The notes under the pieces are model-generated. The model was not told where the DNA came from. It saw only the letters and a list, made by a program, of their open reading frames with translations, and ran no database searches. A stretch of DNA of 48,561 nt. Source: Deltaproteobacteria bacterium. GTDB lineage: Bacteria > Desulfobacterota > Desulfobaccia > Desulfobaccales > 0-14-0-80-60-11. The stretch lies in the NCBI GenBank assembly GCA_016874975.1, contig VGSQ01000010.1:1-48561 (forward strand), read 5' to 3'. Shown here in pieces: positions 8,271-11,689 of the stretch (positions within the stretch are counted from its first letter, which is position 1; each line of letters begins with the position of its first letter). The translations under genes and the position numbers were made by a program.

Positions 8271-8358
8271 CTCGTTCCCAAGCTCCTGCTTGGGAACGCA
8301 CTTGCCCCCGAAGCTCCTGCTTCGGGGAAGGGCGGTTCGGCCGTATGGCCTCGTTTTT
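8271..8358 (+). repeat. twin-hairpin dispersed repeat, copy 1
   Basis: GTTCCCAAGC-TCCT-GCTTGGGAAC (8274-8297) then CCCCGAAGC-TCCT-GCTTCGGGG (8306-8327); homologous to 10605-10692. Confidence 0.9.
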
Positions 8359-8392
8359 ATTCAAAGAACCTTTGGGGGCCTGACAAGACCAA

Positions 8393-8420
8393 CGGCGGGA
8401 GGCGCTTCGCTTTCCCGCCC
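8393..8420. repeat. dispersed hairpin CGGCGGGAGGCGCTTCGCTTTCCCGCCC
   Basis: Near-identical copy at 41857-41884. Confidence 0.8.
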
Positions 8421-8437
8421 TGCACCTAATCCGGTGG

Positions 8438-10127: not shown

Positions 10128-10460
10128 ATGTCCTCGTACTACGACGATCAGGACCTGGACCGCTTTGGCGAGATGGGGGCCCATCGCCCCGAACTCTTCG
10201 AGCTGTTCATGAAATATTACCAGCAAACCATGGCCGCCGGCGTCCTGACGGTGCGGGAAAAGGCCCTCATCGCCCTGGCCGTGGCCCACGCCCTGCAATG
10301 CCCCTACTGCATCGACGCCTACACCCGGGTGCTGCTGGAGGCGGGCTCCAATATGGAGGAAATGACCGAGGCCATCCACGTGGCCGCGGCCATCCGGGGC
10401 GGCGCCGCCCTGATCCACGGCCTCCAGGCCCGGAACACCGCGGCCAGGCTGAGCATCTGA
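10128..10460 (+). CDS. AhpD-like carboxymuconolactone decarboxylase family protein, arsenosugar-biosynthesis-associated type
   Basis: ALQCPYCIDAYTRVLLEAG (CxxC) with ArsS encoded immediately downstream. Confidence 0.8.
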   Translation: MSSYYDDQDLDRFGEMGAHRPELFELFMKYYQQTMAAGVLTVREKALIALAVAHALQCPYCIDAYTRVLLEAGSNMEEMTEAIHVAAAIRGGAALIHGLQARNTAARLSI

Positions 10461-10469
10461 GGGGGCTTT

Positions 10470-10595
10470 GGGTTCCGGGTTCCGGGTTCTGGGTTTTGGG
10501 TTCCGGGTTCTGGGTTTTGGGTTCCGGGTTCTGGGTTTTGGGTTTTGGGTTCCGGGTTCTGGGTTTTGGGTTTTGGGTTCTGGGTTTTGGGTTTT
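10470..10595 (+). repeat. tandem heptamer array (GGGTTYY)18
   Basis: Eighteen consecutive 7-bp units GGGTTCC/GGGTTCT/GGGTTTT. Confidence 0.95.
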
Positions 10596-10604
10596 GGGGG
10601 TCCC

Positions 10605-10692
10605 TCGTTCCCAAGCTCCCGCTTGGGAACGCACTTGCCCCCGAAGCTCCTGCTTCGGAGAAGGGCGGTTCGGACGGATGACCTCGTTTTTA
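10605..10692 (+). repeat. twin-hairpin dispersed repeat, copy 2
   Basis: GTTCCCAAGC-TCCC-GCTTGGGAAC (10607-10630) and CCCCGAAGC-TCCT-GCTTCGGAG (10639-10660). Confidence 0.9.
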
Positions 10693-10720
10693 GATATTCT
10701 CAGCCTCACGGCCTGCCGCC

Positions 10721-11689
10721 ATGCCTATGCTCAACTTCGCCCGTAAACTGGAAAATCTGGGCTACGACGCCCTCCACGCCGAGGCGGTGGACACCCTCCA
10801 GGTGAACCTGGGGTGGCGCTGCAATCAGTCCTGCAAACACTGCCACTTCCAGGCCGGACCGGACCGGACCGAAGAAATGGACCGGGACACGGTGGAGGCC
10901 GTCATCGCCGCGGTGCAGCGCAGCCGCATCGGCACCGTGGACCTCACCGGCGGGGCGCCGGAGTTCAATCCCCATTTCCCCCATCTGGTGGAGAGTCTGG
11001 CCGGGTTGGGCCTGCGCCTCATCGACCGCTGCAACCTCACCATCCTGCTGGAGCCGGGCCTGGAGGGCCTGCCCCAGTTCCTGGCCCGGCACCGGGTGGA
11101 GCTGGTCTGCTCCCTCCCTTACTTCCAGGAGGACCTGGTGGACCGGCTGCGGGGGCCCGGCGTGTTTCAGAAAAGCCTGGAGGCCCTGCGCCGGCTCAAC
11201 GAAGCGGGTTACGGCCGGGAGGGGTCGGAGTTGATCCTCAACCTCATGGTCAACCCCGCCGGGGCCTATTTCCCGGGGCCCCAGGAGGAGTTGGAGCCGC
11301 GCTTCCGCCAGGAACTGGAGCGCCGCCACGGCATCCGCTTCCACCGCCTGTTGACCCTCATCAACATGCCCATCGGCCGCTTCCGGGATTTTCTGGTGCG
11401 CTCGGGCAATTACCAGCGGTATCTCGACCGCCTGGCCGGCAGCTTCAACCCGGCCACCGTGCCCGGCCTCATGTGCCGCCATCTGCTGAGCGTGGCCTGG
11501 GACGGCCGCCTCTTCGACTGCGATTTCAACCAGGCCCTGGACCTGCCCCTGCTGCCCGGTCTGCCCCAGACCATCCGGGAGTTCGACCTGGAGGCCCTGA
11601 GCCGCCGCCCCATCCACCTGGGCGACCACTGCTACGGCTGCACCGCGGGATGCGGCTCCTCCTGCGGCGGAAGTTTAGCAGAGGGATGA
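10721..11689 (+). CDS. arsS: arsenosugar biosynthesis radical SAM protein ArsS
   Basis: LGWRCNQSCKHCHFQAGP (CxxxCxxC) and C-terminal CYGCTAGCGSSCGG typical of ArsS. Confidence 0.85.
   Translation: MPMLNFARKLENLGYDALHAEAVDTLQVNLGWRCNQSCKHCHFQAGPDRTEEMDRDTVEAVIAAVQRSRIGTVDLTGGAPEFNPHFPHLVESLAGLGLRLIDRCNLTILLEPGLEGLPQFLARHRVELVCSLPYFQEDLVDRLRGPGVFQKSLEALRRLNEAGYGREGSELILNLMVNPAGAYFPGPQEELEPRFRQELERRHGIRFHRLLTLINMPIGRFRDFLVRSGNYQRYLDRLAGSFNPATVPGLMCRHLLSVAWDGRLFDCDFNQALDLPLLPGLPQTIREFDLEALSRRPIHLGDHCYGCTAGCGSSCGGSLAEG

Follow-up and report, generated by a model that had tools for sequence, protein, structure and literature searches.

The closest described relatives of the repeat reported here are the G-rich heptamers GGGAATC of Xanthomonas and GGGGA(T/C)T of Nostoc PCC 7120, which lie near stop codons with a bias towards the 5' gene, show a preference for four units, and in the two xanthomonads of that study occupied the same sites with the same repeat type (Rehm et al. 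2015, PMC4692102). Like them, the array described below consists of tandem 7-nt GGG units and belongs to a genome-wide dispersed, mostly non-coding family that is tied to no functional gene class, and such arrays lie closer to the gene on their 5' side, within 50 bp behind its stop on the coding strand or overlapping that stop. It differs from them in its unit (GGGTTYY), in the joining of several unit types within one array, in the company of REP-like palindromes, and in that relatives carry units without G-quadruplex (G4) potential behind orthologous stops. A second comparison is offered by the TAACTGA direct repeats of Beggiatoaceae, cyanobacteria and Bacteroidetes (MacGregor 2015, PMC4679880), which are likewise intergenic heptamer arrays, patchily distributed and situated where genes begin or end. 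On the complementary strand they can be read as AGTTATC, a word similar to the AGTTTTC units of relatives of the present genome; however, the TAACTGA repeats lack GGG, lie mostly just upstream of start codons and were proposed as translational control sites.

Since 2007, prokaryotes have been known to contain an excess of heptanucleotides (Mrazek et al. 2007, cited by both PMC4692102 and PMC4679880), with seven as the dominant long-unit period there as well as here, whereas that statistic, as the citing papers present it, was not connected with anchoring at stops, with polarity or with the replacement of one unit by another at orthologous sites. G4 formation has been offered earlier as the meaning of G-rich heptamers. 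A literature search for the exact unit GGGTTYY found no microbial genomics paper, and in the literature searched no match was found for unit turnover at stop sites, joined unit types, an insertion between ahpD and arsS, or a partnership of REPs with heptamer arrays. To this published picture the present study adds units that turn over at sites behind stop codons, unit types joined in one array, a partnership with REPs, and an insert that has come between two closely spaced genes.

The array between ahpD and arsS

The window analyzed, 48,561 nt long, is one contig of a 3.34-Mb genome assembly in 217 contigs. As assembled, it holds 18 gapless, perfect GGGTTYY units at 10470-10595 on the forward strand, with a closing GGG that extends the array (sequence and TRF) to 10598, and this is the longest perfect run in the genome, the runners-up having 10 and 7 units. 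The units vary only at positions 6-7 (CC, CT or TT), as the first-pass annotation had described, and the CC-CT-TT rhythm that it perceived also stands: with A, B and C for CC, CT and TT, the order AABCABCABCCABCCBCC has a lower conditional entropy than shuffled orders (p=0.0026), running in 21-bp and then 28-bp blocks, and TRF prefers period 28 (score 188) to period 7 (score 169). Judged from the unit order, this looks like repeated copying of three-unit and later four-unit blocks.

Upstream lies an ahpD-like gene for an arsenosugar biosynthesis-associated peroxidase-like protein (10128-10460, forward strand; TIGR04169, 157.6 bits against a cut-off of 120), ending in TGA at 10458-10460. It is followed on the same strand by GGGGGCTTT (10461-10469), an SD-like G run beside the stop that contains an in-register degenerate unit, GGGCTTT (10463-10469), so that the array starts 9 nt past the stop, or 2 nt past it if this unit is counted. 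Downstream, arsS occupies 10721-11689 on the forward strand (TIGR04167, 421 bits against a cut-off of 300), and in alignments with relatives their start codon corresponds to its ATG at 10727. Together with a nearby TIGR04283 glycosyltransferase on the opposite strand, also above its profile cut-off, these matches uphold the arsenosugar setting and the place between the AhpD-like gene and arsS that had been proposed from the sequence; the proposed contact with a twin hairpin is equally real, the hairpin starting at 10606 and the array ending at 10598.

All six frames of GGGTTYY are free of stop codons. Nevertheless, the array lies 3' of a stop codon and outside the called genes, so that a translated repeat was rejected and the suggestion that changes in unit number would shift a reading frame is not supported. 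Phase variation, which would place the repeat in a coding frame or promoter, likewise does not fit a position 3' of a stop. A scan for sigma-70-like promoters found none at 10420-10800, and an Rfam scan of the whole window returned zero matches.

Comparison with ten relatives of the same family revealed that the distance from the ahpD stop to the arsS ATG is 8-13 nt in them and 266 nt here, while the AhpD C-terminus ends at the same residue in all. The junction has thus gained about 255 bp, mainly array and REP-like element, and the junctions of the ten relatives are free of any array. No relative examined carries a shorter array at this place, and for this reason the steps of the insertion were not observed. 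The SD-like G run (TGAGGGGG) persists at the ahpD stop, and no obvious SD was seen in the sequence before arsS. Judging from this spacing, arsS is likely separated from ahpD by a long structured intercistronic RNA, with translational coupling removed. The locus also shows how such inserts can split tightly spaced gene pairs like ahpD-arsS.

Dispersal, period and polarity of heptamer arrays

About 40 GGGTTYY arrays of at least three units were found in the genome, 22 of them with three perfect units and 11 with four, and about half of the three-unit arrays add a terminal GGG, giving four G runs. Arrays of AGGTGYC are about as common (101 three-unit matches genome-wide, against 85 for GGGTTYY), and the two are joined in some arrays, AGGTGYC preceding GGGTTYY on the G-rich strand. 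Among periods 4 to 13, a tandem score of at least 14 was reached in an unbiased 400-kb sample of the genome by 14 runs of period 7, two of period 6 and no other run, and at a score of 16 period 7 alone survived. All 14 tracts were close variants (AGGTGYC, AGGTTYY, GGGTTYY and AGGGGTC). The same sample also held six period-15 runs, possibly coding repeats.

The genes adjoining the other arrays include homoserine dehydrogenase, RlmN, PhoU, MetG, SelA, Lnt, a glutamate-synthase-like protein and a CusB-like protein. Since these neighbors are unrelated housekeeping genes, regulation specific to arsenosugar metabolism was rejected, and the special role in the arsenosugar cluster that the first-pass annotation had in mind gives way to a repeat lying behind some 40 unrelated genes.

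This dispersal also bears on whether the array is an artefact of assembly or collapse. With the genome in 217 contigs, some heptamer arrays do stand at contig ends, such as a long AGGTGYC array at C1:75678-75782, and heptamer arrays may break short-read assemblies; yet similar arrays occur at about 40 places, on many contigs and in many independently assembled genomes, so that an artefact is scarcely credible and doubt is confined to the exact copy number of 18.

With genes called by a codon-usage caller trained on the 400-kb sample, 39 of the 40 GGGTTYY arrays were intergenic, and 36 of these 39 were closer to the gene on the 5' side (p=3.6e-8). A co-directional gene precedes 29 of the 39. 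Moreover, 15 of the 39 start at -2 to +10 bp of a co-directional stop, against 0.7 expected under random intergenic placement (p=1.7e-16), and 24 lie within 55 bp of such a stop (p=1e-17); some share bases with the stop codon (TAG|GGTT) or abut it directly (TGA|GGGTT). The G/T-rich strand of the array class reads away from the upstream gene. A pattern scan of 84,980 species genomes extended the tendency to other phyla, where 7 of 65 GGGTTYY arrays start at -6 to +15 of the stop of a long ORF, against 1.0 expected (p=8e-5).

Unit differences among relatives and the G-quadruplex question

In samples of relatives, period 7 was found again with other words, including AGTTTTC, TGTTTTC, GGTTTTC, AGCAGTC, AGTGGTC, AGTGATC, AAGGTTC and TAAGCTT, and 30 distinct units were counted across the six genomes sampled. 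Period 7 dominates in the five relatives that have heptamers, with units other than those of the present genome, and a further relative (G003) showed no period-7 run in its 140-kb sample; some of the relatives' contigs had been picked through earlier search matches, which may inflate the count of arrays but not their period. When the first 60 bp after each of 554 stop codons in six genomes were examined, 41 tracts had period 7, five had period 8 and one had period 6, while periods 4, 5 and 9-12 were absent. The samples of three relatives (G001, G006 and G008) also contained fewer tracts of period 8, three or four of them behind stop codons in each.

Homoserine dehydrogenase, a TrkA-type channel and RlmN have GGGTTYY or AGGTGTC behind their stops in the present genome, and RGTTTTC, TGTTTTC, TAAGCTT, AGTAGCC and other heptamers of this sort behind the orthologous stops in other genera. 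Different words can thus occupy one kind of place. Strict conservation of sites among relatives is unsupported and is not claimed here, because the rates at orthologous stops (counted in relatives only, about 4/12, 3/13, 3/18 and, for ahpD, 0/11) are near the genome-wide background, the share of stops with a heptamer being 0-19%. The words may share a grammar: RGNNNYY fits 20 of the 30 distinct units against 11.2 in shuffles (p=0.0025), and a CAG/CTG core is enriched (17 of 30 against 6.5). Both are suggestive patterns in the unit sequences, RGNNNYY being no stronger than that because it was formulated after some units had been seen. Inverted heptamer pairs (AGTGATC/TGACCAC and AGTAGCC/GGCTACT) were also noticed in relatives, at L249:13102-13187 (G006, contig C164) and L208 (G006, contig C70), and would make long intergenic hairpins.

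These unit differences weigh heavily on the reading of the array as a G4 regulator under selection, whose G-rich RNA or DNA would fold to control arsS transcription or translation. The motif is compatible with such folding, as the first-pass annotation had recognized: the array has 18 GGG runs with 4-nt spacers, its 129-mer has the highest G4Hunter score (1.16) of all 129-mers in the window, and oligonucleotides of the related GGGAATC and GGGGAYT repeats form G4 in K+ by CD (PMC4692102). However, the further idea that many G-quadruplexes are the point of the array is not supported. In the RNA model, allowing G4 changes the predicted energy of the intergenic RNA from -106.5 to -110.9 kcal/mol, a gain of 4.4, and that of the RNA with gene flanks from -152.3 to -153.2 kcal/mol, a gain of 0.9, the small advantage arising because GGGTTCC units pair with each other. 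Most of the relatives' units lack GGG, and AGTTTTC and AGCAGTC lack even a GG run, so that G4 cannot explain the heptamer family as a whole; such non-G4 heptamers stand at equivalent sites in relatives, AGGTGYC arrays are equally abundant in the present genome, GGGTTYY itself stands behind unrelated housekeeping genes, and the array is missing at ahpD-arsS in the ten relatives. A selected G4 regulator is therefore improbable, and going by these folding models G4 formation is possibly a local by-product of the GGGTTYY unit at most, and not the reason for the class. The occurrence of differing heptamers, many without G4 potential, behind the same stops means that the 7-nt period and the stop anchor are separable from any one sequence.

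The REP-like partner and a proposed origin of the arrays

Downstream of the array, a REP-like dispersed element occupies 10604-10692 on the forward strand, in the same orientation as other array-linked copies and with 94% identity over 89 bp to a second copy in the window (8271-8359, forward strand; DNA search), which has no GGGTTYY array. RNA folding predicts two hairpins in it, both on the forward strand: one at 10606-10631 with an 11-bp stem (CGTTCCCAAGC) and a 4-nt loop, and one at 10641-10658 with a 7-bp stem and a 4-nt loop. The predicted fold of 10599-10726 reaches -50.6 kcal/mol (z -2.55). A DNA search gave 43 scored matches to the element in the genome, and its hairpin occurs at 184 places; in the 400-kb sample, 31 of 32 hairpins lay outside genes, as expected of a high-copy intergenic palindrome.

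The genome also contains a gene for a REP-associated tyrosine transposase at C6:31026-31253 (locus L198; NF047646, 105.7 bits against a cut-off of 80), situated between inverted REP copies with opposite-loop hairpins at 1258 and 1885 of that locus. For this reason the element is regarded as REP-like, and the transposase, from this arrangement of sequences, is likely its own. High-copy intergenic palindromes and a transposase gene between inverted copies are shared with REPtrons. In REP/RAYT systems one foot of the palindrome carries a GTAG or CGTC tag (PMC3733652), whereas inspection of the bases beside hairpin 1 in the window copy at 10604-10692 found neither, so the element is called REP-like and placed in neither superfamily; its partnership with heptamer arrays is a further difference from REPtrons.

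A REP hairpin lies within 150 bp of 14 of the 40 arrays, always downstream and with the same loop strand, against a chance expectation of about 0.3, or about 1.6 if both are limited to intergenic DNA (Poisson p ~1e-8 for 13 independent cases). The array is not part of the REP element, a possibility that was rejected because 26 of 32 sampled REPs lack an array in the 200 bp upstream of them and REPs alone are not anchored to stops, from which they keep at least 38 bp.

The stop anchoring could mirror selection for a 3'-UTR function and not tolerance of insertion. Array and REP would then form a functional module that serves as a mark of the 3' end of the mRNA or as a barrier to 3'-5' exonucleases, so that the upstream gene would have a message stability of its own. 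The strict position and polarity behind stops, the shared orientation of the downstream hairpins, and the report that transcript starts and ends in Xanthomonas fall within or close to such repeats at a higher rate than in controls (PMC4692102) all agree with it. However, REPs by themselves keep their distance from stops, 26 of the 40 arrays lack a REP hairpin within 150 bp downstream, no fold is predicted for weakly structured units such as AGTTTTC, and the sites are mostly unshared among relatives (as for ahpD), which together make the module unlikely.

The account favored here, on balance with somewhat better than even confidence, is that the array is a member of an intergenic heptanucleotide class behind stop codons, produced by 7-nt-specific duplication and later joined by a REP, with arsS separated as a result. 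The dispersal, the period of seven, the stop anchoring, the polarity, the unit differences and the extra ~255 bp at ahpD-arsS are direct observations, and the likely process is a 7-nt expansion whose inserts are tolerated in the 3'-UTR. Duplication, whether by slippage of a polymerase or by some other enzyme that works in 7-nt steps, would start at or beside a stop codon, where an insertion would spare the upstream protein and its start signals; the array would then grow by single units and by three- and four-unit blocks (21 and 28 bp), and REP-like palindromes, probably moved by the REP-associated tyrosine transposase, would settle downstream afterwards.

Plain slippage explains neither why the step is seven and not five, six, eight or nine, nor the fixed polarity. 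The default account of the period is an earlier proposal, to which both PMC4692102 and PMC4679880 refer, of slippage linked to the polymerase footprint. Another reading, rather improbable, is that many bacteria have a dedicated enzyme which advances in fixed 7-nt steps, with a template or in connection with a polymerase, and adds tandem heptamers away from the ends of genes; its word would vary by lineage while period, polarity and stop anchor stay. The question of why seven becomes testable within one bacterial family that holds both heptamer-rich and heptamer-poor members.

Other arrangements that involve REP copies were also noticed. At C23:20062-20565 of this genome (locus L018), a 223-bp unit of REP, spacer and GGGTTYY array is itself repeated in tandem, and its two array copies differ at one unit (CT/TT), which suggests a unit change after duplication. 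In addition, REP copies often have a different dispersed intergenic palindrome (GGCGGGAGGCGCTTCGCTTTCCCGCC) close by, as at 8350-8425 of the window and at loci L011, L020 and L028.
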